From Yersinia kristensenii (GTDB lineage: Bacteria; Pseudomonadota; Gammaproteobacteria; Enterobacterales; Enterobacteriaceae): a DNA stretch of 64,000 bases. The stretch covers positions 310,001 through 374,000 of the forward strand of contig NZ_UHIY01000001.1 of NCBI RefSeq assembly GCF_900460525.1. The letters run 5' to 3'. The position numbers were made by a program, and so were the translations under genes. The notes under the pieces are model-generated. The model was given only the letters and a program-made list of their open reading frames with translations. It was not told the DNA's origin and ran no database searches. Below, in pieces: positions 10,115-57,230 of the stretch (position 1 is the first letter of the stretch; each line of letters starts with the position of its first letter).

Positions 10115-11458
10115 ATGATAACACTACAATTTATAATTATAATTCTCTGTCTATTAGTCGGTACACGCTATGGGGGTATGGGGCTGGGGTTAATAAGTGG
10201 TATTGGCTTATTTATTCTAACCTTTATCTTTGGCCTCGAACCCGGTAAACCGCCTGTCGATGTCATGCTCACAATATTAGCTGTTATTGGTTGTGCTGCT
10301 GTATTACAAACTGCAGGCGGATTGAATGTAATGATGCAATATGCTGAGCGATTATTACGGCGACACCCTCAGCATATTACGCTACTTGCACCATTCACTA
10401 CTTGGTCATTAACCTTTTTATGCGGCACTGGACATGTTGTTTACACCATGTTCCCTATTATTTCTGATATTGCGATTAAAAAAGGTATTCGCCCGGAACG
10501 CCCAATGGCGGTGGCATCGGTCGCATCACAAATGGCGATTACAGCTTCGCCTGTCTCGGTAGCGGTCGTCTCATTGGTGTCCATCATTGGTGCCAATCAC
10601 GGCATAGGCCATGCTTATAGTATCCTGGAGATTTTGGCAATCTCTGTCCCCGCTTCACTCGTCGGCGTACTGGTAGCTGCCTTATGGAGCCTGCGACGCG
10701 GCAAAGATCTGGATAAAGACCCTGATTTTCAGGCAAGAATCAAAGACCCTGAACAGCGCGACTTTATCTATGGATCTACCGATACATTGTTAAATCAGGT
10801 TTTCCCGAAACAGGCTTATTGGTCTACCTTGATATTTTTTGCCGCTATCGCAATCGTGGTATTACTGGGTGCATTTGCAGATCTGCGCCCTGCTTTTGAA
10901 GTTAAAGGCAAAATGCAGTCATTATCAATGAACCTGGTTATTCAGATGATGATGCTGATTGCTGGTGCAGTTATTCTTATTGGCTGCAAAGTGAAACCCA
11001 GCGATATCTCTAATGGCGCCGTATTCAAAGCCGGTATGGTCGCCATATTCTCTGTATTCGGTGTTGCCTGGATGAGCGATACCTTCTTCCAAGCCCACAT
11101 GGGCGACTTAAAACTGGTACTAGAAGACGTGGTGAAAAGCCAACCGTGGACTTATGCCATTGTGTTGTTCTTGGTTTCCAAGTTGGTCAATAGCCAAGCC
11201 GCGGCATTAGCAGCAATCGCCCCCATGGGTTTGCAGCTCGGTGTTGAACCTAAAATGCTCATCGCCTTCTTCCCGGCAGCTTATGGCTACTTTGTTTTAC
11301 CAACCTATCCAAGTGACCTTGCTTGCATCGGTTTTGACCGCTCGGGCACCACTAAAATTGGTAAATTTATTATTAACCATAGCTTTATCATTCCAGGTCT
11401 TATCGGTGTCATCTGTTCGTGCATCACTGGCTACCTGCTTGTAACGACTTTTATGTAG
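10115..11458 (+). CDS. dcuB: Anaerobic C4-dicarboxylate antiporter DcuB
   Basis: 447-residue inner-membrane Dcu-family transporter that exchanges external fumarate for internal succinate during anaerobic fumarate respiration. Full-length similarity to E. coli DcuB (446): EPGKPPVDVMLTI, TFLCGTGHVVYTMFP, ITASPVSVAVVSLVS, KLVNSQAAALAAIAP and YFVLPTYPSDLA, with about a dozen hydrophobic segments. The ATG at 10115 follows AAGG nine bases upstream and matches the family; an upstream in-frame start at 10055 would add 20 hydrophilic residues without support. A terminator follows. Confidence 0.93.
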   Translation: MITLQFIIIILCLLVGTRYGGMGLGLISGIGLFILTFIFGLEPGKPPVDVMLTILAVIGCAAVLQTAGGLNVMMQYAERLLRRHPQHITLLAPFTTWSLTFLCGTGHVVYTMFPIISDIAIKKGIRPERPMAVASVASQMAITASPVSVAVVSLVSIIGANHGIGHAYSILEILAISVPASLVGVLVAALWSLRRGKDLDKDPDFQARIKDPEQRDFIYGSTDTLLNQVFPKQAYWSTLIFFAAIAIVVLLGAFADLRPAFEVKGKMQSLSMNLVIQMMMLIAGAVILIGCKVKPSDISNGAVFKAGMVAIFSVFGVAWMSDTFFQAHMGDLKLVLEDVVKSQPWTYAIVLFLVSKLVNSQAAALAAIAPMGLQLGVEPKMLIAFFPAAYGYFVLPTYPSDLACIGFDRSGTTKIGKFIINHSFIIPGLIGVICSCITGYLLVTTFM

Positions 11459-11480
11459 TTAATGAGTCACTGTTGAGCTA

Positions 11481-11506
11481 AGAGCCAGAGCAATTCTGGC
11501 TCTTTT
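11481..11506 (+). terminator. Terminator of dcuB
   Basis: Stem AGAGCCAGA / TCTGGCTCT with a five-base loop and a short T run, 22 bp after the dcuB stop. Confidence 0.85.
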
Positions 11507-11697
11507 CATCCTTTCTTTTCGCCAGTATTCAAATACAAATTCCTTTCTGCTTATGACATTTTAAGAATGAACTTATCAAAAAAAACCTCTTATTATAATT
11601 AATTATTCAATCTGAAATATCTTATGAGTAAGTCGGATCACAACTGCTACAATGCGGGCCGCATCACAAAAACCATCTATTTCACCATGGACCTATT

Positions 11698-12465
11698 ATG
11701 TTTTCTTTACGTCATACCAGGGCGTTACCGTTTTATATCAGTACACTCGCATTATCCCTCTTCAGTACCGCGGTTCTTGCTGACGCGACTGTTTTTACTG
11801 CTTTAGATGATCCAGCCACAGCCAAAAAGAGCTTTGATGGCACCGTTGAAGCAGGTTATACCGCACAGTCAGGCAATACCAACAACTCAACATTGACCGC
11901 TAACTCAACGTTGACTTGGTTCCAGTCGAATACTGCTTATAGTTTGTGGGGCGCGGCGCGCAATACCAGCTCTAATGATCAGCGTTCTTCTGAGCGTTAC
12001 CAATTAGGCGGCCGTACTCGCTATAATCTGACAGATAGTAACTATTTGTTTGGGCAAGCAGGTTGGTTAAATGACCGTTATAACGGTTTTGATTCCCGCT
12101 CTGTATTGACCACAGGTTATGGTCGACAGATTATGACCACTCCATTGCACAATCTGCGGGTGGAATTTGGTCCGGGTGTCCGTCACGATGAATATTATCA
12201 AGGCGGCCGCTCGACGAGAGCATTAGCCTATGCGGGGGGTAACTATACTTATCAGTTGACTGACAACACCGTCTTCAGTGAAGGGGTTTCAGCACTGGCA
12301 AACGAAGAAACGACATTAAACTCAGAAACGGCATTGAATGTTGCTATCAATAAAAGCTTCGCATTGCGTTTAGCCTATGTCGTAACCTATAACACCAAGC
12401 CACCGGCCAGCGCGCCAAAGAATACAGATACCACAACATCAGTCACTCTGGTTTACGGCCTGTAA
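11698..12465 (+). CDS. ydiY: DUF481 outer membrane beta-barrel protein YdiY
   Basis: 255-residue YdiY-like protein (DUF481, described as salt- or acid-inducible in E. coli). Sec signal peptide at residues 1-28 ending in AVLADA, then alternating amphipathic strands rich in Tyr, Asn and Thr (GTVEAGYTAQSGNTNNS, LGGRTRYNLTDSNYLFGQAGW, RVEFGPGVRHDEY) and a C-terminal strand TTTSVTLVYGL typical of outer membrane barrels. Molecular function unknown. It stands alone between dcuB and the convergent rplS operon. Confidence 0.88.
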   Translation: MFSLRHTRALPFYISTLALSLFSTAVLADATVFTALDDPATAKKSFDGTVEAGYTAQSGNTNNSTLTANSTLTWFQSNTAYSLWGAARNTSSNDQRSSERYQLGGRTRYNLTDSNYLFGQAGWLNDRYNGFDSRSVLTTGYGRQIMTTPLHNLRVEFGPGVRHDEYYQGGRSTRALAYAGGNYTYQLTDNTVFSEGVSALANEETTLNSETALNVAINKSFALRLAYVVTYNTKPPASAPKNTDTTTSVTLVYGL

Positions 12466-44126: not shown

Positions 44127-45770
44127 ATGTCAAACAAACCGTTCCACTATCAGGATCCCTTCCCGCTAAAGGAAGACGATACTGAGTATTACCTTGTCAG
44201 TAATAATCACGTCTCGGTTGCACAGTTTGAAGGCCACGACATTCTGAAAGTCGAGCCAGAAGCCCTGACCCTCCTCGCCCAACATGCTTTCCATGACGCC
44301 TCATTCCTGCTCCGCCCCGCGCACCAAAAGCAAGTCGCCGCAATTTTGGATGACCCGGAAGCCAGCGAAAATGACAAATATGTGGCCTTGCAATTCCTGC
44401 GCAACTCGGAAATCTCGGCCAAAGGGATTTTACCGACCTGCCAGGATACCGGCACCGCCATTATCGTGGGTAAAAAAGGCCAACGTGTTTGGACGGGCGG
44501 CAATGATGCTGAAGCCCTGTCGCGCGGCGTGTATAACACCTTTATTGAAGATAACCTGCGCTACTCGCAAAACGCGGCGCTGGATATGTACAAAGAAGTG
44601 AACACCGGCACCAACCTGCCAGCGCAAATCGATCTGTACAGCACCGAGGGCGAAGATTACAAATTCCTGTTCGTCACCAAAGGTGGCGGCTCCGCCAACA
44701 AAACCTATCTGTATCAGGAAACTAAAGCGCTGTTGTCACCGGGTAAGTTGAAAGACTATCTGGTGGAGAAAATGCGCACCTTGGGTACAGCGGCCTGCCC
44801 GCCCTACCATATTGCTTTTGTTATCGGCGGCACCTCAGCTGAAAGCACCCTCAAGACCGTCAAACTGGCCTCCACCAAGTATTACGATGGCCTGCCAACC
44901 GAGGGGAATGAGCACGGGCAAGCTTTCCGTGATGTTCAGCTTGAACAAGAATTATTGGAAGCCGCACAGGACTTAGGTCTGGGCGCGCAATTTGGCGGCA
45001 AGTACTTTGCTCACGATGTGCGCGTCGTTCGCCTGCCACGCCACGGTGCATCCTGCCCGGTCGGGATGGGCGTTTCCTGCTCCGCTGACCGCAATATCAA
45101 AGGCAAAATTAACCGCAAAGGTATCTGGCTGGAAAAACTGGAGCAGAATCCGGGGAAATATATCCCTGAGCACCTGCGCAACAGCACCGAAGGCAAAGTG
45201 GTTAAAATCGACCTTAACCGCCCCATGGCCGATATCTTAAAAGAGCTGTCGCAGTATCCAGTTTCTACCCGTTTGTCATTGACCGGCACTATTATTGTTG
45301 GCCGTGACATTGCCCATGCAAAATTAAAAGAGCGGCTGGATAACGGCGAAGGGTTACCGCAATACATTAAAGACCATCCGATTTACTACGCGGGACCAGC
45401 CAAAACACCAGAAGGTTATGCCTCCGGATCCCTTGGGCCAACCACGGCGGGCCGCATGGATTCCTATGTCGACCTACTGCAATCCCACGGTGGCAGCATG
45501 ATCATGCTGGCAAAAGGCAACCGGAGCCAACAAGTGACGGATGCTTGTCACAAACACGGTGGCTTCTATCTGGGCAGCATCGGCGGCCCGGCTGCGGTGT
45601 TGGCGCAAAACAGTATCAAAAGTCTGGAATGTGTGGAATATCCTGAATTGGGTATGGAAGCCATCTGGAAAATTGAAGTGGAAGACTTCCCGGCCTTTAT
45701 CTTGGTGGATGATAAAGGTAATGATTTCTTCCAACAGATTCAGGCATCGAAATGTAACCGCTGCGGTTAG
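44127..45770 (+). CDS. fumA: Class I (iron-sulfur) fumarate hydratase
   Basis: 547-residue oxygen-labile [4Fe-4S] fumarase (FumA/FumB type, E. coli 548) interconverting fumarate and malate. N-terminal Fe-S domain with cluster cysteines in [18 protein letters not shown] and GASCPVGMG, and C-terminal beta domain with [16 protein letters not shown] and [26 protein letters not shown]. FumA and FumB cannot be told apart from sequence alone; absence of an adjacent dcuB favours FumA. The ribosome site is weak (GAG). Confidence 0.93.
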
Positions 45771-45779
45771 CATCAAAAT

Positions 45780-45807
45780 CCAACCTCGGTAGTTTCGCCG
45801 GGGTTGG
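45780..45807. terminator. Hairpin after fumA
   Basis: Inverted repeat TCCAACCTCGG / CCGGGGTTGGA with an eight-base loop, 9 bp after the fumA stop. No clear T run follows, so terminator function is uncertain. Confidence 0.5.
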
Positions 45808-45865
45808 ACCTATTACCAATGAAATGATTACCGGTAAAAACAGACAAAATTTTGAATAATTTTTA

Positions 45866-45882
45866 AGCACCCCACTGGTGCA
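45866..45882. promoter_or_regulatory. NtrC-type binding site upstream of the amide operon
   Basis: AGCACC-N5-GGTGCA matches the NtrC palindrome TGCACC-N5-GGTGCA in all but the first base. It lies about 180 bp upstream of the urtA promoter. I found no sigma-54 element downstream, so how it would act is unclear. Confidence 0.5.
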
Positions 45883-46060
45883 ATTTATTAACCTCTACCG
45901 CCATATTCCACCCGTTCCTGTTAGATAATCTCACCGCTTTGCTATTCTTCACCCGCCGTTAGCGCTTGCGCATTAATGAGCCATTTTCGTGCAACAGAAA
46001 GCCCTGATTTAGTGCAACGATTTTCAATTTTACTATTTGATTTTTATTGAAAATTCTTCG

Positions 46061-46090
46061 TTGACAACCACTCTAAATGCTTTTTATAGT
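46061..46090 (+). promoter_or_regulatory. Sigma-70 promoter of the urt-fmdA-amiCR operon
   Basis: Perfect -35 TTGACA (46061-46066), 18-bp spacer, -10 TATAGT (46085-46090). Predicted transcription start is near 46097, giving a leader of about 135 nt before urtA. Confidence 0.7.
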
Positions 46091-46138
46091 GGCCATGACT
46101 TCTCCGCAAGAACGCCAACGTTGTCGGCTTGTGGTTAT

Positions 46139-46150
46139 GGCAATAGAGCC
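46139..46150 (+). other. Hexaloop hairpin overlapping the leader terminator, possible ANTAR target
   Basis: GGC-AATAGA-GCC forms a 3-bp stem with a six-base loop beginning with A. Its 3' arm (46148-46150) is the same sequence as the 5' arm of the terminator, so the two structures exclude each other. ANTAR proteins bind paired hexaloop hairpins near terminators; the usual A1/G4 loop signature is only partly met here (A1 present, G at position 5). An upstream loop AACGTT (46117-46122) has A1 and G4 but an imperfect stem. Confidence 0.4.
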
Positions 46151-46187
46151 CTCGCAATGTCATCTGACTTTGCCGGGCTTTTTTTTT
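46147..46187 (+). terminator. Leader terminator (attenuator) before urtA
   Basis: Stem AGCCC-tc-GCAA-t-GTC / GAC-t-TTGC-c-GGGCT with loop ATCT, followed by T9, ending 45 bp before the urtA start and downstream of the promoter. It would stop transcription of the operon unless antiterminated; the operon itself encodes an AmiR-like antiterminator. Confidence 0.85.
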
Positions 46188-46232
46188 GGCTTTTTTTCAG
46201 ACCCACTTTTTTAACCAATATCAGGGGTATTT

Positions 46233-47495
46233 ATGTCGAAAATAAAATGGTCGAGAATGAAATGTCATCCCACCACACTCTCAATCGCGCTGGCCGTTGC
46301 CTGTGCCGTGACCTACTCAGATATGGCGATGGCGGCAGAAAAACCGGTGAAAATTGGTTTGTTGGAAGATGCATCCGGTAACTTTGCTTTACCGGTGATT
46401 CCCAAAATTCATGCCACAGAACTTGCGGTAGAAGAAATTAATGCCAAAGGCGGCATCCTCGGACGCCCAATCGAATTGGTCAAATACGATACACAATCCG
46501 ATAACACCCGCTTCCAACAAATGGCGCGCCGCTTAATTAAAAATGACAAAGTGGATGTGATATTTGGGGCGTTTTCCAGTGCCTCACGCGAAGCTATCCG
46601 CCCGATAATGGATCGCGAAAAACAGCTCTATTGGTATAACAATCAATATGAAGGCGGGGTGTGTGACTCCAATGTGTTCGTCACCGGCGCAGTACCTGAA
46701 CAGCAATTCTCAACCTTGATCCCGTGGATGATGGAGAAGTACGGCAAAAAAGTTTACACCATTGCTGCCGACTATAATTTCGGGCAAATCTCCGCTGAAT
46801 GGGTACGCAAAATTGTCGAAGAAAATGGCGGCACCATGGTGGGTGAGGAGTTTATCCCGCTGAGCGTTTCACAATTTGGTCAAACCATTCAAAACATCCA
46901 GAAAGCCAAGCCTGATTTCGTGATGACCTTGCTGGTCGGGGCAAACCAATCCTCTTATTACGAGCAACAAGCGGCGGCAAAACTGAACTTGCCCATGGGC
47001 AGCTCCGTCAGTGTCGGCCAGGCTTATGAGCACAAGCGCTTTAAAGCCCCAGCATTGAAAGATATGTATATCACGGCTAACTACATTGAAGAGGTGGATA
47101 GCCCCGCCAGTAATGATTTCAAACAGCGTTTCCACGCCAAATTCCCGAATGAACCTTATATCAATCAGGAAGCGGCCAATGCTTATGACGCGGTTTATCT
47201 GTACAAAGCCGCCGTGGAAAAAGCGGGCACCACAGATATGGATGCCGTGCGTAAATCACTGGAAAGTGGCGATATTTGTACTGACGGCCCCTCAGGAAAA
47301 GTTTGTATCGATCCGAAAAGTCATCATTTGAGCCACACCATCTATCTGGCCCATGTCAAAGACGACCACTCGATCGAGATTCCGAAAGTGTGGACAGACA
47401 TCAAACCGTATTGGTTGGGTGAGGCCGGTTGTAATTTGCCGGTGAAACCGGATAACAGCCAATACACCCCATCATCGCCACCGAAAAAAGCCTAA
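46233..47495 (+). CDS. urtA: Periplasmic urea/short-chain amide binding protein, UrtA type
   Basis: 420-residue type I periplasmic binding protein of the UrtA/FmdD/AmiC-like group. Signal peptide about 1-34 ending AMA before AEKPVKIG. Family segments: KIGLLEDASGNFALPVIPKI, ELAVEEINAKGGILGRPIEL, YWYNNQYEGGVCDSNVF, AADYNFGQISAEW, PYINQEAANAYDAVY. Captures urea or a small amide for UrtBCDE. The true ligand cannot be read from sequence; formamide or acetamide are plausible given the amidase genes downstream. Preceded by an attenuator. Confidence 0.88.
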   Translation: MSKIKWSRMKCHPTTLSIALAVACAVTYSDMAMAAEKPVKIGLLEDASGNFALPVIPKIHATELAVEEINAKGGILGRPIELVKYDTQSDNTRFQQMARRLIKNDKVDVIFGAFSSASREAIRPIMDREKQLYWYNNQYEGGVCDSNVFVTGAVPEQQFSTLIPWMMEKYGKKVYTIAADYNFGQISAEWVRKIVEENGGTMVGEEFIPLSVSQFGQTIQNIQKAKPDFVMTLLVGANQSSYYEQQAAAKLNLPMGSSVSVGQAYEHKRFKAPALKDMYITANYIEEVDSPASNDFKQRFHAKFPNEPYINQEAANAYDAVYLYKAAVEKAGTTDMDAVRKSLESGDICTDGPSGKVCIDPKSHHLSHTIYLAHVKDDHSIEIPKVWTDIKPYWLGEAGCNLPVKPDNSQYTPSSPPKKA

Positions 47496-47530
47496 CAAAA
47501 CCGGTGAGTGAAGGGTTGACCGCACCTAGA

Positions 47531-47603
47531 GGCACTTCGACGGCTCATACCGTTACGGCCCCAACGGCACGGTTCCCCTTCATTTGGCTCTGTCAGCAGT
47601 CTG
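47531..47603 (+). repeat. 73-bp operon repeat, copy 1 (urtA-urtB spacer)
   Basis: Aligns without gaps to 52195-52267. The first six and the last 13 bases (TGTCAGCAGTCTG) are identical. Columns 10-13 and 20-23 form ACGG / CCGT here and GTCG / CGAC in copy 2, so three of four base pairs differ but pairing is kept. It occupies the 204-bp gap between urtA and urtB, 96 bp before urtB. Confidence 0.75.
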
Positions 47604-47699
47604 AAAGGGCAACTTTGTCGGGAAGTCACCGCTTGAGCGAACTTCCCTGTGTTATCCATTTTCAATGGTGTCAATCAAGACACCCAGGATTGCCAATCG

Positions 47700-48569
47700 A
47701 TGTTAACGCTATCCTTTCTCTATTCGGTGATTTATCAGTTTGGCGATAACTTCGCCTATCTGGTGCTGGCAGCACTGGGGCTGGCGGTTATTTTTGGCAT
47801 GATGGGGGTGATCAATCTGGCGCACGGCGAATTCATTATGTGTGGTGCTTATGTCACCATTCTGATGAATAAAGCGGGATTGCCACTGCCTTTTGCCATG
47901 CTGGCCGGGACTTTGGCGGCGGCCTTCTTCGGCGGCGTCATCGAGCGCCTGGTGGTGCGCCATCTCTATGGCCGTTTGTATGATTCGGTGGTAGCCACTT
48001 GGGCTATCAGCTTGATTGTACAGCAAAGTATGCTGCTAATTGCCGGCCCATCACTGGAGGGGCTGTCTACGCCGTTCGGCTCATTCACCCTCGGCGAATA
48101 CTCCTTTGCCACTTACCGAGCATTACTGCCCTTCTTTGCCATTGCCATTTTAATGGTGCTCTATTGGCTATTTTTCCACACCAATTACGGCGTCTGTGCC
48201 AGAGCCACGATTCAAAATGCCCGCATGGCTGCCTGTTTGGGATTAGAAACTGACCGGATTTATACCCTGACATTCGCACTAGGCGCTGGGCTGGCAGGAT
48301 TGGCCGGGGCCATTTATGCCCCGACACTCACGGCCGTTCCCACCATGGGCAGCAGTTTTATTGTTCAAGCCTTTGTTTCAGTGGTGGTGGGTGGCGCAAA
48401 TGTACTTGTTGGCACCATTCCTGCAGCGATTGCATTAGGCGCGATACAAACTGGGCTGAATTCCTGGTATGGGCAATTAGCTGGGCAAGTTGGCTTATTG
48501 GTCACCGCCGTCTTGGTTATCCGCTTATTACCTAACGGTATTGGCAGCCTGTTTACCCGTAACCGCTAG
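47700..48569 (+). CDS. urtB: ABC transporter permease, UrtB type
   Basis: 289-residue branched-chain-amino-acid-type permease (LivH/UrtB family) with about eight membrane segments: YLVLAALGLAVIFGMMGVINLAHGEFIMCGAY is the family start, followed by AIVGGANV-like VVVGGANVLVGTIPAAIALG. Works with UrtC as channel. ATG at 47700 fits the family N-terminus; an in-frame GTG at 47649 would add 17 hydrophilic residues with no ribosome site. The Shine-Dalgarno at 47700 is weak (AGGA 11 bases away), so expression may depend on upstream RNA structure. Confidence 0.9.
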   Translation: MLTLSFLYSVIYQFGDNFAYLVLAALGLAVIFGMMGVINLAHGEFIMCGAYVTILMNKAGLPLPFAMLAGTLAAAFFGGVIERLVVRHLYGRLYDSVVATWAISLIVQQSMLLIAGPSLEGLSTPFGSFTLGEYSFATYRALLPFFAIAILMVLYWLFFHTNYGVCARATIQNARMAACLGLETDRIYTLTFALGAGLAGLAGAIYAPTLTAVPTMGSSFIVQAFVSVVVGGANVLVGTIPAAIALGAIQTGLNSWYGQLAGQVGLLVTAVLVIRLLPNGIGSLFTRNR

Positions 48570-48578
48570 GAGCTGCAT

Positions 48579-49637
48579 GTGACAACGACTTCTGTTCATT
48601 TATCGGCGGCAAAACAACGCACGCCGTCCACCACTCGGCTAGCAGCGCTGCTCATTTTGGTGGGTGCGCTTGCCCTGCCGTTAGTGGTCGATAGCGCCAT
48701 GATCGGCGATTTTTCCTACTTCCTACTGTGGACATTCTGTGCCATTGGGTTAGCGGCAATGTGGGGGCATGGCGGCATTTTATCTTTCGGCCAGACTGCG
48801 TTCTTTGGCCTTGCCGGTTACACCTACGGCGTGATGACCTTAAATTTCGGCGATGGTGTGCTCTCCACCTGGTCGGGCTTGATTATGGCCTTGCTGGTAG
48901 CCGCCGCCGTGGCTGCGGCACTGGGTTATCTGATGTTTTACGGCGGAGTGACCGGCATTTTTATCGGCATTGTGACCTTGTCTTTCACACTGGTGCTGGA
49001 AACCTTTATGTCACAGACCGCTGGCCCGCAATGGGCGATCGGCAGCGCGCGACTGAATGGTTTTAATGGCATGTCCGGTATGCCGCCGCTCTCTCTGCCG
49101 TGGTTTGATGGCAAATTACTGACCCTGGAGGGCAATGCCTTTTACTACCTGATTATCCTGTTGCTTGCCGGTGTTTACTGGGGGGTTAGGCGGGTATTGC
49201 GCTCTGATTTTGGCCTGACTTTGGCCTCTATCCGCGAGAACCCCCGGCGGGCAGAAATGCTCGGTATTGATATCCGCCGCTACCAATTACTGGTGTTCGT
49301 GCTCGGCGGTGTGCTCTCCGGGTTATCCGGCGCACTGTATACCTTATGGGGGTCTTATATTACACCGTCCTCCATGGGGCTGACCGCCGCCGCGATGCCA
49401 GTTATCTGGGTGGCGACCGCTGGGCGGAAAAATATTTTTGGCACCGCGGTTATCACCGCCCTGTTGGTGTGGTTATCCCAATGGCTGGCTATTTACGGCA
49501 GCGAATACGCCATGATCTTGCTGGGTGCCATTCTGCTGTTTGTGGTGCTGGCCGCGCCCAACGGCTTATTACCTTGGCTGGCAGAGAGAATCACCCGCAG
49601 GTCTACTGCGCGTCAGAAAAAAGGGGAGTCGCTATGA
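48579..49637 (+). CDS. urtC: ABC transporter permease, UrtC type
   Basis: 352-residue LivM/UrtC-family permease. Membrane segments throughout; conserved GLAAMWGHGGILSFGQTAFFGLAGYTYG, TGIFIGIVTLSFTLVLE, IRENPRRAEMLGIDIRRYQLLVFVLGG. Start GTG at 48579 with AGGAG six bases upstream, 9 bp after urtB. Ends overlapping urtD by four bases. Confidence 0.93.
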   Translation: MTTTSVHLSAAKQRTPSTTRLAALLILVGALALPLVVDSAMIGDFSYFLLWTFCAIGLAAMWGHGGILSFGQTAFFGLAGYTYGVMTLNFGDGVLSTWSGLIMALLVAAAVAAALGYLMFYGGVTGIFIGIVTLSFTLVLETFMSQTAGPQWAIGSARLNGFNGMSGMPPLSLPWFDGKLLTLEGNAFYYLIILLLAGVYWGVRRVLRSDFGLTLASIRENPRRAEMLGIDIRRYQLLVFVLGGVLSGLSGALYTLWGSYITPSSMGLTAAAMPVIWVATAGRKNIFGTAVITALLVWLSQWLAIYGSEYAMILLGAILLFVVLAAPNGLLPWLAERITRRSTARQKKGESL

Positions 49638-50368
49638 ATCCAGCAGCGCAAGATTTGATCCTCGAAACCCGTGGGCTAAGCAAACGCTTTGGCGGTATTC
49701 AGGTTATCAATCAAGTTGATTTGCAAATCCGTCGTGGTGAAGTCCGCTGTGTGATTGGCCCAAATGGCGCGGGTAAAAGTACCTTTTTCAAACTGCTGAC
49801 TGGCGAACATACGCCAAGTGATGGGGATATCCGCTTTTTTAATCGACGGCTGAACACTCTGCCGCCCTTCCAGCGCATTCGTATGGGCATGAGCATTAAG
49901 TTTCAGATCCCCGGCATCTTTCCTGAACTGACAGTTGAGCAGCATTTACAGCTATCACTCAGTCACTTACGCCCAGAGGTTCGCGCGCAAGCGGTCAGTG
50001 TCGATGAGCTATTAGAGCGCTTTAAGCTCAGAGCGGAATACCACCAGCTGGCCGGTAATTTATCTCACGGCAAGAAACAGTGGTTGGAAATTGCCATGGC
50101 GGTGTCGCTACAACCCACTTTACTGATGCTGGATGAGCCGGTCGCGGGGTTATCTATTGATGAAACCTATCTCACCGGCGAGCTGATTAAGCAGATGCAA
50201 AGTGACGGCCTGACATTGATGGTGGTGGAACACGACATGACATTCGTGCGGCAAATAGCTTCACAGGTCACTGTGCTCCATGGCGGACAAGTGTTTGCCG
50301 ACGGTAATGCCGCCGAGGTGCTAGCCCGTGAGGATGTGGCAGATATCTACTTGGGGAAAGCAGTATGA
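49634..50368 (+). CDS. urtD: ABC transporter ATPase, UrtD type
   Basis: 244-residue ATP-binding subunit. Walker A GPNGAGKST, signature region LSHGKKQWLEIAMAV (the SHG...QWLEI form is typical of UrtD rather than LivG), Walker B LLMLDEPVAGL and switch His in VVEHDM. ATG at 49634 overlaps the urtC stop (ATGA) and follows AGGGGAG; a long upstream frame lies inside urtC and is discarded. Couples ATP hydrolysis to UrtBC. Confidence 0.95.
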   Translation: MNPAAQDLILETRGLSKRFGGIQVINQVDLQIRRGEVRCVIGPNGAGKSTFFKLLTGEHTPSDGDIRFFNRRLNTLPPFQRIRMGMSIKFQIPGIFPELTVEQHLQLSLSHLRPEVRAQAVSVDELLERFKLRAEYHQLAGNLSHGKKQWLEIAMAVSLQPTLLMLDEPVAGLSIDETYLTGELIKQMQSDGLTLMVVEHDMTFVRQIASQVTVLHGGQVFADGNAAEVLAREDVADIYLGKAV

Positions 50369-51084
50369 ATAACGTGGTTTTACACATAGAAGGACTGACT
50401 GGCGGTTATGGCGGCGGGCAAGTGCTCAATGGCGTCACGCTACAACTGCACGCGGCGGAAGTCTTGGGGTTGATTGGCCGCAATGGCGTGGGGAAAACCA
50501 CCTTAATGCGCACGTTGATGGGTGCCGTTCCGGCGCGACAAGGCCAGATTTTGTTGGGGGAAATTGACATCACCCAGGCCTCGCCGCAGCGCCGCGCCCG
50601 TCTGGGAATCGGCTATGTTCCGCAAGGGCGCGAGGTATTTGCCGGGCTAACTGTGGCAGAAAACCTGCAAGTCGGCATGCAGTTTGTCCGTGAACACCGC
50701 GAGTTTGCCCAAGACTTACTGGAGCGAGTACTAGATTACTTCCCGATTTTGCGTCAAAGACTCAAACAAAAAGCCGGCACCATGAGTGGTGGTGAGCAAC
50801 AACAGTTGGCTATCGCCAGAGCCTTGGTCGGTTCGCCCAAAGTGTTATTGCTGGATGAACCCTCTGAAGGCGTCCAACCCTCTATCGTCAACATCATTGC
50901 CGATACCTTGGTGCGCATTGCCCGCGAGCTGCATGTGGCGGTGATTCTGGTCGAGCAGGATATCGCGATGATCCAGCGGGCCGCACAACGTTGTGCGGTG
51001 ATGGATAAAGGCCATGTAGTCGAAAACCTGTCAAAACAACAACTTTCTGATGATCTTTTAATGCGCCGTCATCTGGCTCTGTAG
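50365..51084 (+). CDS. urtE: ABC transporter ATPase, UrtE type
   Basis: 239-residue second ATPase of the importer. Walker A GRNGVGKTT, VPQGREVFAGLTVAENL, signature MSGGEQQQLAIARAL, Walker B LLLDEPSEGVQPSIV (the SEGVQPSI form is typical of UrtE) and VEQDIAM. Start overlaps the urtD stop by four bases. Confidence 0.95.
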   Translation: MNNVVLHIEGLTGGYGGGQVLNGVTLQLHAAEVLGLIGRNGVGKTTLMRTLMGAVPARQGQILLGEIDITQASPQRRARLGIGYVPQGREVFAGLTVAENLQVGMQFVREHREFAQDLLERVLDYFPILRQRLKQKAGTMSGGEQQQLAIARALVGSPKVLLLDEPSEGVQPSIVNIIADTLVRIARELHVAVILVEQDIAMIQRAAQRCAVMDKGHVVENLSKQQLSDDLLMRRHLAL

Positions 51085-51115
51085 CCGGGTGCCCTAATGA
51101 TGTGGAGAATTGCTA

Positions 51116-52105
51116 ATGAAATGGCTGGAAGAATCAATCATGGTTAAACGCGGTGTCGGTGCAGGTCGTAAACCGGTCACTCATCATTTGACGGAAGAGA
51201 TGCAAAAAGAGTTTCACTACACCATCGGCCCTTACTCAACGCCGGTTTTGACCATTGAACCCGGTGACCGGGTGATTGTAGACACGCGAGATGCTTTCGA
51301 GGGAGCGATTAGCTCAGAGCAGGATATCCCGAGCCAACTGCTCAAAATGCCGTTTCTCAACCCGCAAAATGGCCCGATTATGGTCAATGGTGCCGAGAAA
51401 GGCGATGTGATTGCGGTCTATATCGAATCCATGTTGCCGCGTGGGGTTAATCCGCACGGCATCTGCGCCATGATCCCGCACTTTGGTGGGCTGACCGGCA
51501 CAGATTTGACCGCCATGCTCAATGATCCGCTGCCGGAAAAAGTGCGCATGATTAAGCTCGATAGTGAAAAAGTCTACTGGAGCGAGCGCCATACCCTGCC
51601 CTATAAGCCGCATATTGGCACCCTGAGTGTGTCGCCGGAAATTGACTCCATCAATTCTCTGACACCGGATAATCACGGCGGGAATATGGATGTGCCGGAC
51701 ATCGGGCCGGGCAGTATTACTTATCTGCCGGTACGCGCCCCCGGCGGCCGCCTGTTTATTGGCGATGCCCATGCTTGTCAGGGGGATGGCGAAATTTGCG
51801 GCACCGCGGTGGAATTCGCCTCTATCACCACCATCAAAGTGGATTTGATTAAAAACTGGCAGCTCTCCTGGCCACGGATGGAAAACGCCGAAACCATCAT
51901 GAGTATCGGCAGCGCACGCCCACTAGAGGATGCCACCCGCATTGCTTATCGTGACCTGATTTACTGGTTGGTGGCCGATTTTGGTTTCGAACAATGGGAT
52001 GCCTACATGCTACTGAGCCAATGCGGCAAAGTGCGGCTGGGTAATATGGTTGACCCCAAATACACCGTCGGCGCAATGCTTAACAAAGAACTTTTAGCGC
52101 AGTAA
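51116..52105 (+). CDS. fmdA: Formamidase / acetamidase (FmdA_AmdA family)
   Basis: 329-residue amidase of the FmdA/AmdA family, hydrolysing formamide or acetamide to the acid and ammonia. Conserved PGDRVIVDTRDAFEGAI, GDVIAVYIESMLPRGVNPHG, PDNHGGNMDVPDIGPGS, GGRLFIGDAHACQGDGEICGTAVEF. Not related to nitrilase-type amidases. The ATG at 51116 has GGAG eight bases upstream; an alternative TTG two codons earlier is less likely. 31 bp after urtE, so in the same operon. Confidence 0.9.
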   Translation: MKWLEESIMVKRGVGAGRKPVTHHLTEEMQKEFHYTIGPYSTPVLTIEPGDRVIVDTRDAFEGAISSEQDIPSQLLKMPFLNPQNGPIMVNGAEKGDVIAVYIESMLPRGVNPHGICAMIPHFGGLTGTDLTAMLNDPLPEKVRMIKLDSEKVYWSERHTLPYKPHIGTLSVSPEIDSINSLTPDNHGGNMDVPDIGPGSITYLPVRAPGGRLFIGDAHACQGDGEICGTAVEFASITTIKVDLIKNWQLSWPRMENAETIMSIGSARPLEDATRIAYRDLIYWLVADFGFEQWDAYMLLSQCGKVRLGNMVDPKYTVGAMLNKELLAQ

Positions 52106-52194
52106 AAACGGCTAGCACAAGCATCCTTGCCTCCAGGTTAACGGGGTGAGGTTATTGATAAAGCTCGGAGATTGGCGGTGCGACTGCACCGATG

Positions 52195-52267
52195 GGCACT
52201 CCGGTCGCTTACGCGACTACGACCCATTCGGCACATTTCCCCGCTTATCAACTTTGTCAGCAGTCTG
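52195..52267 (+). repeat. 73-bp operon repeat, copy 2 (fmdA-amiC spacer)
   Basis: Second copy of the element at 47531-47603, same orientation, ending 54 bp before the amiC-like start. It folds a perfect 5-bp hairpin GTCGC-TTAC-GCGAC at 52204-52217, the counterpart of the ACGG / CCGT stem of copy 1. Part of it lies in an open frame continuous with amiC, but that translation has no similarity to the AmiC family. Confidence 0.75.
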
Positions 52268-52321
52268 GGCTGTTATTCAAGTTTATCTAATCGCCATTCT
52301 CAACAGCATAAGCAGGTGGCT

Positions 52322-53488
52322 ATGAGTTCAGAAACACCGGTCAATATTGGCTTGCTGTACTCCTTCAGTGGTGTGACGGCGGCACAAGAATTGTCGCAGT
52401 GGCGTGGGGCGACACAGGCGATTGCTGAAATTAACCAAAATGGCGGTATCAACGGCAGGCTGCTGAATGCCATTCATTTTGACCCAAAATCTGATGATGC
52501 GCAGTTCCGTGCTCTGGCCGAACAATTGATCGTCGAGCATGAGGTTAATGTAATTTTTGGCGGCTATACCTCCAGTAGCCGCAAAGCCATGTCGCCGATT
52601 GTAGAGAAATATCGGCGGCTGCTGTTCTATTCACAACTGTATGAAGGCTTTGAGTTTTCTGACAATATTTTCTATGGCGGCGCAGCACCTAATCAAAACT
52701 GCGTACAACTAGCAGACTATCTGACGGGCCAATTTGGCGCGCGAGTGTATTTGATTGGCTCCCGCTATATCTATCCCTACGAATGTAATCGCAATATGCA
52801 GGAACTCATTCTGCAACGCCATGATGGTGCAGTGATTGGCGAGCGCTACCTGGATCTGAATGCCCCTTATGAGGCTTTCCTGCCCATTATCGAGGAAATA
52901 ACCAAAAAGCAGCCCAATTTTATCTTCAGCACGGTGGTCGGGCAAACCGTCCCTTTCTTGTATCAAGCTTATCAGGCGGCAGGGCTAGATCCTGCCCGCA
53001 TGCCTATTGGCAGCCTGAATACATCAGAAACTGAGATTGCCATTATGGGGGCGGAAGTGGCACAGGGCCATTTTAGCTCAGCCCCTTATTTCCAAAGCAT
53101 TGGCACAAAAGCGAATCAATCAGCACTCAAACAATTCCATCAGCAATTCGGGCCGGAATTCACCACCGACATGAATTGGGAAGCCACCTACAGTCAGGTG
53201 CATTTATTCGCCAAAGCTATGGCCGAGTGCGGCAGTGACCATATTTATCCGCTGTCCGCCGCCTTGCGCGGCAGCCAATTTGATGCGCCACAAGGCCGCA
53301 TTCGTATTGACCCGCTGAACCAACACACCGGGCTTTATCCGCGCATTGGTATGGCGAATGAAAGCGGGCAATTTACTATCGTGCAAGAATCTCGCCGTAT
53401 CGTCGAACCCGACCCCTATATGACCAACCAAATTCAGGGCGATTGGGTCACCAAACTCACGACAGTGGGGTATCCACATGCGACCTAG
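52322..53488 (+). CDS. amiC: Cytoplasmic amide sensor, AmiC-like
   Basis: 388-residue periplasmic-binding-protein fold without signal peptide, matching Pseudomonas AmiC (385): IGLLYSFSGVTAAQELSQ, VNVIFGGYTSSSRKAMSPIVEKY, YEGFEFSDNIFYGGAAPNQN, IGSRYIYPYECNRNM, FSTVVGQTVPFLYQAY, NTSETEIAIMGAEVAQGHF, FDAPQGRIRIDP. AmiC holds AmiR inactive until an amide binds. ATG 52322 follows AGGTGG; the 50 codons of open frame upstream cross the 73-bp repeat and are not part of the protein. Overlaps amiR by 11 bases. Confidence 0.9.
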   Translation: MSSETPVNIGLLYSFSGVTAAQELSQWRGATQAIAEINQNGGINGRLLNAIHFDPKSDDAQFRALAEQLIVEHEVNVIFGGYTSSSRKAMSPIVEKYRRLLFYSQLYEGFEFSDNIFYGGAAPNQNCVQLADYLTGQFGARVYLIGSRYIYPYECNRNMQELILQRHDGAVIGERYLDLNAPYEAFLPIIEEITKKQPNFIFSTVVGQTVPFLYQAYQAAGLDPARMPIGSLNTSETEIAIMGAEVAQGHFSSAPYFQSIGTKANQSALKQFHQQFGPEFTTDMNWEATYSQVHLFAKAMAECGSDHIYPLSAALRGSQFDAPQGRIRIDPLNQHTGLYPRIGMANESGQFTIVQESRRIVEPDPYMTNQIQGDWVTKLTTVGYPHAT

Positions 53489-54116
53489 CGACAGCAGAAT
53501 CAGCGCGACAGCCCTCTTACTCAGCCGCGGGATCCGCTGTGTGGTGCTACACCCCGACGACGACGATGGCGAAACCCTGACCAATCATTTGCGCCGAATG
53601 GGGTTTAAAGTGCAGGCTTTCTGGCCCATTCCCGAGCAACTGCCCGCCGATACCGACTTAATTTTCTATGCATTACAATCAGATAACCCAGAACCAGATG
53701 TGTCATGGTTCACCCCCAACAAACATGCGCTGATAACGGTTATCGCCTATGAGAACCCCACATTTATTGATCAAGCACTCAAGATGGGCGCGGACAGCAC
53801 CATAACCACCCCGCTGCGCGCCTCAGGTTTACTGTCGGCGATGGTGTTTGCTTTACACCATGCCCAACAGCAGCGGCAAATGAGTGATCGTATTGAGCGA
53901 TTGGAGAAAAAAGTGCTGGGCGTTCGCCAGGTCAGTGAGGCCAAAGCCATTCTGATGCGGATGCACAGCATTGGCGAAGAACAGGCCTACGAAATCCTGC
54001 GCCATCAGGCCATGGATAAACGCATTACCGTCGAAGAGATCTCATGCGCACTGATTCAAGCCAATGATATTTTCTCCTGGACCACCCCAGGAGCCACCAA
54101 TAACCGGAAGAACTGA
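53478..54116 (+). CDS. amiR: ANTAR-domain transcription antiterminator, AmiR-like
   Basis: 212-residue protein (Pseudomonas AmiR 196): a receiver-like N-terminal domain lacking the usual phospho-acceptor pocket (about 1-125), a coiled-coil linker (MSDRIERLEKKVLG, 135-148) and a C-terminal ANTAR RNA-binding domain (about 150-198) with EAKAILMRMHSIGEEQAYEI and LRHQAMDKRITVEEI. ANTAR proteins bind hairpins in leader RNA and block terminators. Its start lies inside amiC, so the two are coupled and made in matching amounts. Natural target: the urtA leader terminator at 46147-46187. Confidence 0.9.
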   Translation: MRPSDSRISATALLLSRGIRCVVLHPDDDDGETLTNHLRRMGFKVQAFWPIPEQLPADTDLIFYALQSDNPEPDVSWFTPNKHALITVIAYENPTFIDQALKMGADSTITTPLRASGLLSAMVFALHHAQQQRQMSDRIERLEKKVLGVRQVSEAKAILMRMHSIGEEQAYEILRHQAMDKRITVEEISCALIQANDIFSWTTPGATNNRKN

Positions 54117-54171
54117 GTTTCGATTGTTCGGAGCTCCCCCAGAACATCATTCAGAATTTATGAGGATAATC

Positions 54172-55905
54172 ATGTCGATAGCCCCTTACCTTGCAGCCGC
54201 CATTCAATTTGAACCCCGCATGTTTGCCAAAGAAGCAAATTTGCAGCAATTATTGGCATTGGTAGAACAGGCGGCACAGAAAGGTGCTCGTCTGATTACC
54301 ACCCCAGAAATGGCGACCACCGGCTACTGCTGGTTTGATCGACAGGAAATTGCACCAATGGTCGAAACCGTCCCCGGCGAAAGCACTGCCCGTTTCGCTG
54401 AATTAGCGCAACGTTATCAATGCTATATCGTGTTAGGTATGCCGGAGGTAGACCAAGAAACCGCGCTGTATTACAACAGTGCGGTACTCATCGGGCCGCA
54501 AGGGGTCATTGGCTGTCATCGCAAAAGTCACGCCTATATATCAGAACCGAAATGGGCCGCTGCAGGAGATGTCGGGCATCAAGTGTTTGATACGCCGCTA
54601 GGGCGTATCGGCATGTTGGTGTGTATGGATATTCATTTTCCCGAAACCGCCCGCTTGCTGGCGCTGGATGGCGCTGATGTGATTTGCCATATCAGCAATT
54701 GGCTGGCGGAGCGCACCCCTGCCCCTTACTGGATCAGCCGGGCGATGGAAAATGGCTGTTATTTACTGGAAAGCAACCGCTGGGGGCGAGAGCGCGGAGT
54801 CCAATTTAGCGGCGGCAGCTGCATCATTGAACCTGATGGCAACATTGCAGCAGTGGTGGATGACGGCAACGGAATAGCTTATGCCGAAGTTGATATCAGC
54901 CGCAGCCGCCAGCGCCAGGTATTGGGCGAGTTAGTGTTTGAACAGCGCCGCCCTGACTATTATCACGCGCTATTAAGTGACAGTTTTTTGTGGAACCCGC
55001 AAGATTTCTTTGGGCTTTACGGCCAGCAGCCTTTGCCTCCGGGCAAACAGAGCCGCATCACGGTGGCGCAATTCTGCTCAACTGAACAGGTGGAAGAGAA
55101 TCTGGCGACCATTACCGCCATGACAGAAAGTGCCGTTTTACAACAAGGTAGCGAGCTAATTGTGTTTCCAGAGTTAGCCCTGACCGGCTATCACGCCGGT
55201 GCAGTCAATGCACAGACGCCAGAAAGCCCCGCCGTGCAGGCGTTAGCTCGCCTGGCCATGAGATTGCGGGTCTATCTGGTGGTGGGAATGGCTGAAAAAC
55301 AGCAGAATAAAAACTACAATACGCAGATGTTATTTGGCCCGGAGGGGATAATAGGCGGCTACCGGCAAATCCATCTTTCTCAACAAAATCAACAGTGGGC
55401 CAGCGCTGGGGAGCACTGGCAGGTGTTTGATACAGCGCTTGGCAGGGTCGGATTGTTGCTGGGCCATGATGCTCTACTCCCCGAGTCAGCGCGCATTCTG
55501 GCCCTGATGGGATGTGATATTATCGCCTGTTCTGCCGCCCTTCCGGCCGGTTTTACCGCCGCACATAAGGGCAGTGCTGTGGTACAAAATTACCCTATTC
55601 CGACTGGGGCCGACCCGCTGCACTGGCACTTATTCAGAACCCGTGCCGGGGAAAATAATCTTTATCTGGCCTTTGCCAATGCACTCGATGGCAGCAACCA
55701 ACGCGGAGGATATAGCGGAGTGTTCGGGCCAGAAACCTTTACTTTTCCACGGCTTGAGCGGCTGCTTTGGCAAGAAACGCAAACCGTCACACAAACCATT
55801 GATACTCGCTCCCTCGCGGGCAGCCCCTACCCTACCAATGTGGTGCGCCGTAAAGATTTGGTTGCCATGCGCCAGCCCCATCACTATAAACCGCTGCTGA
55901 GCTAA
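54172..55905 (+). CDS. Tandem nitrilase-superfamily amidohydrolase with a degenerate second domain
   Basis: 577 residues with two carbon-nitrogen hydrolase domains. Domain 1 (about 1-275) has the complete triad Glu46 (PEMATTGY), Lys118 (HRKSHAY) and Cys151 (LVCMDIHFPE). Domain 2 (about 293-577) keeps Glu334 (PELALTGY) but has Gln399 in place of Lys (YRQIHL) and Gly431 in place of Cys (LLLGHDALLPE), so it should be catalytically dead. Probably hydrolyses an amide or nitrile in the same pathway. ATG 54172 follows AGGA; the upstream open frame overlaps amiR and is rejected. Last gene of the operon. Confidence 0.85.
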   Translation: MSIAPYLAAAIQFEPRMFAKEANLQQLLALVEQAAQKGARLITTPEMATTGYCWFDRQEIAPMVETVPGESTARFAELAQRYQCYIVLGMPEVDQETALYYNSAVLIGPQGVIGCHRKSHAYISEPKWAAAGDVGHQVFDTPLGRIGMLVCMDIHFPETARLLALDGADVICHISNWLAERTPAPYWISRAMENGCYLLESNRWGRERGVQFSGGSCIIEPDGNIAAVVDDGNGIAYAEVDISRSRQRQVLGELVFEQRRPDYYHALLSDSFLWNPQDFFGLYGQQPLPPGKQSRITVAQFCSTEQVEENLATITAMTESAVLQQGSELIVFPELALTGYHAGAVNAQTPESPAVQALARLAMRLRVYLVVGMAEKQQNKNYNTQMLFGPEGIIGGYRQIHLSQQNQQWASAGEHWQVFDTALGRVGLLLGHDALLPESARILALMGCDIIACSAALPAGFTAAHKGSAVVQNYPIPTGADPLHWHLFRTRAGENNLYLAFANALDGSNQRGGYSGVFGPETFTFPRLERLLWQETQTVTQTIDTRSLAGSPYPTNVVRRKDLVAMRQPHHYKPLLS

Positions 55906-55962
55906 GCCCCCTCCCTAACAACTCTCGGTTAAAGACTGCCGGGAGTGGTTGTGCAATGAGCT

Positions 55963-55982
55963 TTTTGCACATATGTGCAAAA
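55963..55982. promoter_or_regulatory. Candidate SorC operator 1
   Basis: Perfect 20-bp palindrome TTTTGCACATATGTGCAAAA. Two more copies follow nearer sorC. Confidence 0.65.
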
Positions 55983-56101
55983 CCCACCACATCACGCAAA
56001 ATAAAAATGTGATCAGAATCGAATATTTGTTCGGAATAAAGCGGGCAGACACAAAAACCGTTTTTATATTTATTTAATACAAATCAATCCATTAAAGAAG
56101 C

Positions 56102-56117
56102 TTGCACAGATGTGCGA
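56102..56117. promoter_or_regulatory. Candidate SorC operator 2
   Basis: TTGCACAGATGTGCGA, one mismatch from palindromic TTGCAC-N4-GTGCAA, centre 137 bp from operator 1. Confidence 0.55.
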
Positions 56118-56245
56118 TATCTGAAATTAATTCCAATGAGTCTATTAGGGGATTGTTTTGCCATTGGTGAGATATTCGTTATTTTGTACTTTTGACTTAA
56201 AAAATAGAAAGTGATTATATCAGGTCATAGATAACTTAATGACAT

Positions 56246-56261
56246 CTGCACAAATGTGCAA
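56246..56261. promoter_or_regulatory. Candidate SorC operator 3, over the sorC ribosome site
   Basis: CTGCACAAATGTGCAA, ending 9 bp before the sorC start codon at 56271 and just upstream of its ribosome site, centre 144 bp from operator 2. Position suggests autoregulation. Confidence 0.55.
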
Positions 56262-56270
56262 GAGGCTGAA

Positions 56271-57230
56271 ATGGAAAAAAGCGATGATCTGCGCCTGATG
56301 GTGAAAGTTGCACAAATGTATTATGAGCAAAATTTCACACAAGCTGAGATAGCGCGGGCGCTGGGGATTTACCGCACCAGCATTAGCCGAATGCTCAAAA
56401 AAGTACGCGAACAAGGTATTGTCACTATTTCAATCAACTATAACTATAACGAAAATTTGTTGTTGGAACAGCAGTTGAAATCGCGCTTTAAATTACGCGA
56501 AGCGATTGTCGTTTCTTGCGAGCAGGACACCTCGCCGGAACAGCAACTGATATTGATGGGAAAACAATGTAGCGCATTACTGAATAGAATTATTGAAAAT
56601 GGCGATATTCTGGGCTTCTCCTGGGGCAGTGCGATTGCCACACTGGTTGAGCAAATGGATGTCTCGCCAGTATCGCGCCAATTAACCTGTATTCCCATGG
56701 TTGGCGGCCCTTCAGGTAAATTGGAAAGCCGCTTTCATGTCAATACACTGGTCTACAGCGCCGCAATGAAATTAAAAGGCGAGTCATTGCTGATCGATTT
56801 CCCGGCTATTCTGGAAAAAAGTGTTATCCGCGATGGTATTGTGCAATCTCAGCATTATCAGGCGATTGCCGATTATTGGCAGCGACTGGATATCGCTATA
56901 TTTGGTATTGGTTCACCCAATATTTCTGGCAATTCTACCTGGCGTGCCTTTTATGGTAGCGATGTTATTGACCACTTTAATGACCGACAGGTGGCGGGTG
57001 ATATCTGTTCTCGCTTTTATGATTTACAGGGTAATCCGGTTGAAACCACTATCTCGGATAAAACCATTACCATTCAATTGGACAAAATTAAGAAAGCCCG
57101 TTATTCCATTGGAATAGCGCACTCTCACGAGAAAATTAGCGGGATCATCGGCGCGATTAAAGGAAAATATATTAATAGCCTGGTGACCACCAAAGAAACT
57201 GCCGAGGAGATATTAAAACTCACGGCATAA
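56271..57230 (+). CDS. sorC: SorC-family transcriptional regulator of the sorbose operon
   Basis: 319 residues (Klebsiella SorC 315): N-terminal HTH (about 20-50, FTQAEIARALGIYRTSISRMLKKV) and the sugar-phosphate-binding SorC domain (GDILGFSWGSAIATLVEQM, MVGGPSGKLESRFHVN, FGIGSPNISGNSTW). In Klebsiella it activates with sorbose and represses without. ATG 56271 has GAGG five bases upstream; the GTG at 56256 is less likely. First gene of sorCDFBAME. Confidence 0.92.
   Translation: MEKSDDLRLMVKVAQMYYEQNFTQAEIARALGIYRTSISRMLKKVREQGIVTISINYNYNENLLLEQQLKSRFKLREAIVVSCEQDTSPEQQLILMGKQCSALLNRIIENGDILGFSWGSAIATLVEQMDVSPVSRQLTCIPMVGGPSGKLESRFHVNTLVYSAAMKLKGESLLIDFPAILEKSVIRDGIVQSQHYQAIADYWQRLDIAIFGIGSPNISGNSTWRAFYGSDVIDHFNDRQVAGDICSRFYDLQGNPVETTISDKTITIQLDKIKKARYSIGIAHSHEKISGIIGAIKGKYINSLVTTKETAEEILKLTA

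Follow-up and report, generated by a model that had tools for sequence, protein, structure and literature searches.

The question raised by this locus is how an operon that joins a urea-type ATP-binding cassette (ABC) importer to amide-hydrolysing enzymes is switched on, and by which small molecule. The window, that is, the whole stretch of 64,000 nucleotides (nt) analysed here (contig NZ_UHIY01000001.1 of assembly GCF_900460525.1, positions 310,001 to 374,000 of the forward strand), is part of the 4.73-Mb genome of Yersinia kristensenii and carries, as judged from open reading frames (ORFs) and family profiles, nine genes on the + strand in the order urtABCDE-fmdA-amiC-amiR-nitrilase. An earlier note on this DNA had described a nine-gene operon behind a leader with a strong terminator and had proposed that AmiC and AmiR control it by antitermination. 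All the genes were found on that strand, the terminator was located at 46145-46187, and comparison of genomes supports the proposed control. The sequences show the gene order, a promoter-like site, the terminator, mutual exclusion of two hairpins (P1 and P2) and the terminator in predicted folds, conservation of the leader, and its co-occurrence with AmiR, and we consider AmiC/AmiR-dependent antitermination at the leader of this nine-gene operon very probable. The leader elements are:

46061..46090, + strand: promoter TTGACA-18-TATAGT, with 11 of 12 consensus matches; all 15 leaders of the genus share the two hexamers unchanged
46104..46134, + strand: P1, an enclosing stem CCGCAAG/CUUGUGG around a hairpin with the hexaloop AACGUU at 46117-46122, placed by gapless alignment to Burkholderiales P1
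46139..46150, + strand: P2, GGC[AAUAGA]GCC, overlapping the 5' arm of the terminator, placed by the P2 pattern, alignment and fold
46145..46187, + strand: intrinsic terminator with the hairpin at 46145-46181 and a T9 run at 46179-46187, from sequence and predicted fold

The promoter is the best of nine promoter-like matches in 45700-56400, and because 11.8 such matches are expected there by chance, the match by itself proves little. The 111-nt leader is more stable than its shuffles (z -3.1; 3 of 200 shuffles were equally good). It has two short hexaloop hairpins, the second of which overlaps an intrinsic terminator, as in the definition of ANTAR dual-hexaloop targets (PMC3369931); the P1 loop AACGUU presents both A1 and G4, and the stem of P2 has three pairs. 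When the leaders were cut after P2, P1 and P2 were predicted in all 30 distinct leaders; at full length, 28 of the 30 place the 3' arm of P2 in the terminator. Only 2 of 2700 shuffles, made from nine leaders, attained P1 and P2. The P2 pattern, which was derived from loops already seen in leaders of the fmdA-type gene order, is present in 35/35 such leaders with upstream DNA (L083, L095 and L108 are without it), and 34 of these, the window included, align without a gap from P1 through P2, the near-duplicates L077 and L117 being omitted from the alignment. The enclosing stem of P1 varies in sequence by group (CCGCAAG/CUUGUGG; CCUCG/CGAGG; CCAGU/ACUGG), yet it is paired in all 30 distinct leaders, and it is this stem, the terminator stem and sequence conservation that lend structural support to the predicted hairpins. 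Most leaders of the Burkholderiales eight-gene core are textbook ANTAR targets, with P1 GAC[AAAGAU]GUC and P2 GGC[ACAGAA]GCC, the latter overlapping the terminator.

The two regulators have the parts of an AmiC/AmiR system. Residues 6-377 of the 388 of AmiC match P. aeruginosa AmiC of the co-crystallised pair 1qo0 (E 2e-74; also 1pea), and residues 9-192 of the 212 of AmiR match the AmiR of that pair (1qo0_D, E 1e-20), with PF21332 (AmiR_N, 100.3 bits) and PF03861 (ANTAR, 45.8 bits) both above cut-off. AmiC starts with MSSETPVNIGLL and by eye has no signal peptide, and amiC overlaps the adjacent amiR, both as the earlier note had it; the overlap is 11 nt. Six of the eleven RNA-contact residues of EutV that are named in the excerpt of PMC8934654 are identical in AmiR, among them Tyr164, Lys149, Glu160, Arg168 and Met172, and a seventh, K143R, is a conservative change.

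In the switch that we propose, transcription of the operon would start from the promoter at 46061-46090. With no inducer, AmiC would keep AmiR inactive and most transcripts would stop at 46145-46187, before urtA. An intracellular small amide would bind AmiC and free AmiR, and the ANTAR dimer would capture the nascent RNA as P1 and P2; P2 would take the GCC needed by the 5' arm of the terminator, no terminator would form, and the polymerase would read into urtABCDE-fmdA-amiC-amiR-nitrilase. The terminator precedes the genes of both regulators that would control it, so induction should raise AmiC and AmiR alike. The AmiC-AmiR complex, its release by the ligand and the antitermination step are what we infer from P. 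aeruginosa AmiC/AmiR and E. faecalis EutV.

Within the genus, an AmiR of at least 91% identity is present in 15 of 25 genomes, window included, and fmdA in the same 15. In each of the 14 other loci of the genus a fumarase-like gene, the same one throughout, precedes all nine genes, whose order does not change, and the 15 leaders, window included, share an invariant block of 54 nt that reaches to the 5' arm of the terminator; the operon is therefore not a chance assembly. A gene that we take to be a SorC/DeoR-like regulator (the fumarase-like label is likewise our assumption) lies downstream in 13 of the 14 stretches. None of the nine genes was found in the 6.2 kb after the fumarase-like gene in the ten genomes of the genus that lack the operon, and in two of these (G012 and G015) the regulator follows the fumarase-like gene almost directly; from these junctions and empty sites the operon therefore comes and goes as a block. 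The 54-nt block is identical in a Raoultella plasmid operon (AmiR 88% identical) and nearly identical in Brenneria salicis and Klebsiella sp. BIGb0407, the last of which has a terminator inner stem changed in sequence and still pairing, with the ANTAR hairpins kept. The nine-gene order is also found in these two genomes and on one Raoultella and one Klebsiella plasmid (the two records examined of 21 at 80-90% AmiR identity), and the eight-gene core in 22 Burkholderiales loci, so the arrangement is not confined to this genome; the earlier note knew of none in Enterobacterales but allowed for a prior description.

The genome of the window encodes a single ANTAR protein, and the covariance model R1 gives one strong leader in it (78.7 bits, the next at 17.9, for the best 150 of 1359 candidates scored). 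When 394 genomes of the order were searched with R1, scoring the best 11 first-look candidates per genome, matches above 70 bits and an AmiR above 90% identity occurred in the same three genomes; two other genomes of the order have an AmiR relative at 31%. No AmiR relatives were found in viral contigs, and, for context only, a search of 369 class genomes with the AmiR_N family gave 6 matches above cut-off.

In the wider comparison, among 80 loci kept of 117 confirmed, 32 have the fmdA-type order (8 Yersinia, Brenneria, Klebsiella and 22 Burkholderiales) and 27, mostly from Alphaproteobacteria, have amiC-amiR followed by urt genes. Agrobacterium fabrum pAt1 carries amiC-amiR-urtABCDE-tandem nitrilase (nitrilase 59% identity over 572 residues), and Comamonas antarctica amiC-amiR-importer-nitrilase. 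The pairing of AmiC/AmiR with ABC importers is thus seen repeatedly, in Gamma-, Beta- and Alphaproteobacteria. In 31 of the 46 loci that are neither of the fmdA type nor truncated, a dual hexaloop in which each loop has G4 stands, together with a T run, within 320 nt after amiR, where shuffles give an expectation of 0.07 and the rest of the same loci (781 kb) holds three matches. The motif was set after the leaders of 27 of the 46 had been viewed, so the count is not a blind one, and as it demands G4 in both loops the 31 matches are uninformative on the frequency of G4. R1 gave 11 matches at E<=1 on the same 46 sources, nine just after amiR and two elsewhere; these being too weak alone, the motif count with its controls was used instead.

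Several observations weigh against the proposed switch. In the P1 of the window a C.U mismatch takes the second pair from the loop, beside the closing C-G pair and above a long stem, and this second pair is unpaired in 10 of the 30 distinct leader rows; the three-pair P1 stem of the PMC3369931 definition is thus missing. The P2 loop AAUAGA keeps A1 and has A at position 4, where the same definition has G4. Because these two defining features fail, we regard the leader as a variant that would function like an ANTAR target and not as a strict member of the 2012 definition. The first 50 nt of the window leader gain only modestly over shuffles (z -1.2), in 2 of the 30 full-length leaders the predicted fold contains P2 at the expense of the terminator, and covariation is nearly nil in the inner stems of P1 and P2, as these hardly vary. 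Four of the eleven EutV contacts named in the excerpt of PMC8934654 are changed in AmiR (R142V, K147E, N173D and R177T). Six genomes of the order without a close AmiR give weak R1 matches of 24.8-27.1 bits, and the strict dual-hexaloop motif is missing in 15 of the 46 other amiCR loci, of which L109, L122 and L124 show a hairpin resembling P2 close to a T run, with G4 in its loop.

The fourth position of the P2 loop deserves separate treatment. None of the 34 aligned fmdA-type leaders departs from A1 and G4 in P1. In P2, G4 is present throughout the Burkholderiales with the exception of Pollutimonas, whose loop is AAAAGA; the Enterobacterales loop is AAUAGA. Enterobacterales and Pollutimonas cluster on a tree of AmiC plus AmiR (97/92; 26 chosen loci), Pollutimonas being a long branch. 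L114, a locus that is not of the fmdA type and falls outside this group, has a candidate P2 with A4 and without a T run, and outside fmdA-type leaders the loss of G4 may not be confined to one clade. For EutV, the excerpt of PMC8934654 describes G4 as obligatory for efficient antitermination and as the sole base-specific contact. Either the AmiR of the A4 clade recognises A in the place of G4, or its binding to P2 is weak and P1 carries most of the action. We see an even chance that the ANTAR switch of Yersinia, Brenneria, Klebsiella and Pollutimonas works with a P2 lacking G4 (A4 and G5; AAUAGA/AAAAGA), which would be a natural change of the RNA code with P2 recognition unlike that of P1, under a regulator found repeatedly in Proteobacteria alongside ABC importers of the amide and urea types. 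Such a clade offers a natural test of the EutV-based model, in which an ANTAR dimer reads two hairpins. Among the 33 AmiR compared, several residues that vary with the P2 loop are clade-specific, for example R161 and Q151, and these were rejected as proof of a joint change with the loop, since one clade proves nothing.

It could also be argued that AmiR acts mainly on P1 or in some other way, the A4 form of P2 being a poor site of little help, and this would leave the core switch intact. The full retention of A1 and G4 in P1 beside the G4-less P2 of Enterobacterales and Pollutimonas would fit such a view, as would the binding to single hexaloops reported in the excerpt of PMC8934654; however, no Enterobacterales copy examined differs in the loop AAUAGA or its GGC/GCC stem, which overlap the terminator arm, and we think this explanation unlikely, if the strongest of the alternatives. 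As an observation in its own right, a pyrimidine-pyrimidine mismatch beside the loop-closing C-G of P1 (46113-46126 in the window) recurs in the distant AmiR-linked leaders L080, L116, L118 and L121.

As to the signal, the excerpt of PMC10392092 gives eight conserved urea-binding residues of UrtA, W120, S122, Y141, Q144, E146, Y190, N246 and S274. In our alignment of the pocket (31 chosen proteins), W120F and N246V are found in 8/8 fmdA-type UrtA, which thus lack the complete urea-binding set, and S122, Y141, Q144, E146 and Y190 are kept; the S274 column, where the alignment is not safe, has Ser in the window and Asn in 7/8. Where urea-binding UrtA has Trp120 and Asn246, AmiC itself shows Tyr and Val or Ile, as P. 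aeruginosa AmiC does, and in its YPxPYEG stretch all six fmdA-type AmiC have Gln where 1pea has Thr and 1qnl Asn; its ligand may not be acetamide itself.

As to the enzymes, FmdA agrees with PDB 5ubu, a structure from Y. enterocolitica, at 319/320 residues. It belongs to PF03069 and scores 76.3 bits, below the 500-bit cut-off of the NCBI formamidase equivalog NF045496, and the name fmdA is for this reason used loosely here. In the nitrilase, Glu, Lys and Cys, which we take to be the catalytic triad of the family, are all present in the first domain of 6/6 homologues aligned; the second is degenerate, with Gly for Cys in all six and Gln for Lys in five (the five Enterobacterales), both changes being seen in the window, the Lys being kept in an Azospirillaceae relative and in Agrobacterium (the latter read by eye). 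A similar nitrilase fusion stands after urtE in Agrobacterium and in a metagenome-assembled genome of Azospirillaceae.

Because Phe replaces Trp120 and Val replaces Asn246 in every fmdA-type UrtA aligned, urea is unlikely, and the pocket residues and neighbouring enzymes together make a short amide the likelier substrate or ligand. Of the urea/amide uptake that the earlier note had assigned to the operon, the amide part is the likelier. A real switch that responds to urea, in an operon for urea uptake, would again leave the core mechanism untouched, and it has some points in its favour: among the NCBI curated models, urtA passes the archaeal-type urea model TIGR03669 at 609 bits (urtB-E fall below their cut-offs), a urease is encoded elsewhere in the genome, and several relatives in Alphaproteobacteria adjoin urease genes. 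We nevertheless hold it to be improbable, and somewhat more so than action through P1, as the operon contains no urease and does contain an acetamidase/formamidase and a nitrilase, the UrtA pocket has changed as described, and an amide was likewise inferred for an fmdA-linked cluster of B. japonicum in the excerpt of PMC3098086. The UrtA of urease-linked relatives aligned likewise lacks Trp120 and Asn246. For Yersinia and the plasmid-bearing Klebsiella with this operon, the label 'urea transporter' is called into question.

That the leader attenuates in cis, as a ligand-binding RNA, by temperature or by coupling to translation, with amiCR acting elsewhere, is very improbable, for although a riboswitch would show a long invariant leader too, a scan of the whole window with Rfam gave no family at gathering score in the leader, strong leader matches in the 394 genomes occur solely with a close AmiR, the best-scored candidates of its own genome include no second strong target, and in Klebsiella sp. 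BIGb0407 the ANTAR hairpins are kept while the inner stem of the terminator changes.

AmiC/AmiR antitermination, our preferred reading, is of a kind already known. The amidase operon of P. aeruginosa (1qo0) shares with ours a cytoplasmic AmiC sensor, a pseudo-receiver-ANTAR AmiR, the adjacency of their genes and a leader terminator; it makes AmiE, whereas in place of that enzyme the Yersinia operon encodes an acetamidase/formamidase, a tandem nitrilase and an ABC importer. The EutV leaders of E. faecalis, as described in PMC3369931 and in the excerpt of PMC8934654, also have P1 and P2 hexaloop hairpins with P2 overlapping the 5' arm of the terminator, but the Yersinia P1 sits on a longer enclosing stem with a mismatch below the closing pair, the P2 loop has A4, and the predicted control of AmiR is through release by a binding protein rather than through phosphorylation. 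Two operons in the excerpt of PMC13209695 come near in gene content: the urtABCDE-fmdA-fmdB-amiE cluster of P. veronii likewise pairs an amide hydrolase with a urea-type ABC importer, without amiCR, and the amiE-amiC-amiR-ABC operon of a Klebsiella KOS9 plasmid likewise joins amiCR to an ABC importer and is amiE-based with four ABC genes; that excerpt describes no leader RNA for either.

In Y. enterocolitica W22703, the excerpt of PMC3079665 places an acetamidase/formamidase, an ABC transporter and a nitrilase on contig 1186 between YE0815 and YE0816, which is probably the same operon, and it names neither regulator nor leader there. A 2012 publication had already listed urea transporters, in general terms, among the genes preceded by ANTAR targets (PMC3369931, section 10). 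Searches of literature lying mostly outside the subscription journals gave no description of the leader of the operon, of AmiC/AmiR control in Yersinia or of the altered P2 loop. Both the use at an importer operon and the altered RNA contact are worth testing, and the analysis predicts a leader, a regulator and targets for the switching on of amide scavenging in Yersinia and some plasmid-bearing Klebsiella.

The genes of the operon lie as follows:

46233..47495, + strand: urtA-like periplasmic binding protein (ORF and profile matches; signal-peptide-like N-terminus by eye)
47649..48569, + strand: urtB-like permease (ORF and profile matches; the true start may be internal)
48579..49637, + strand: urtC-like permease (ORF and profile matches)
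49637..50368, + strand: urtD-like ATPase (profile matches)
50365..51084, + strand: urtE-like ATPase (ORF and profile matches)
~51140..52105, + strand: fmdA, acetamidase/formamidase family (PF03069)
52322..53488, + strand: amiC, cytoplasmic ligand sensor and predicted inhibitor of AmiR (PF13433)
53478..54116, + strand: amiR, predicted pseudo-receiver and ANTAR antiterminator (PF21332 AmiR_N and PF03861 ANTAR)
~54172..55905, + strand: tandem nitrilase fusion (PF00795 in two stretches)

The earlier note had read this set as an importer and two amidases; the gene set stands, and the last gene is instead a two-domain nitrilase fusion. Between fmdA and amiC, at 52168-52267, lies an interspersed repeat of about 100 bp, and a search of the genome with this gap gave 31 matches, of which one is the gap itself. 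In the copy of the operon on a Klebsiella michiganensis plasmid (L065), the annotation places ISKpn26, an IS5-like element, at 10930-11910, where it separates amiC from amiR. A gammaproteobacterial fmdA-type cluster (L173) has distant amiC-amiR relatives ahead of urtA rather than after fmdA, and on the Aminobacter plasmid pMET1 (L070) amiC-amiR stands ahead of urtABCDE and urease genes, with a UrtA that is also without the urea-binding Trp and Asn.

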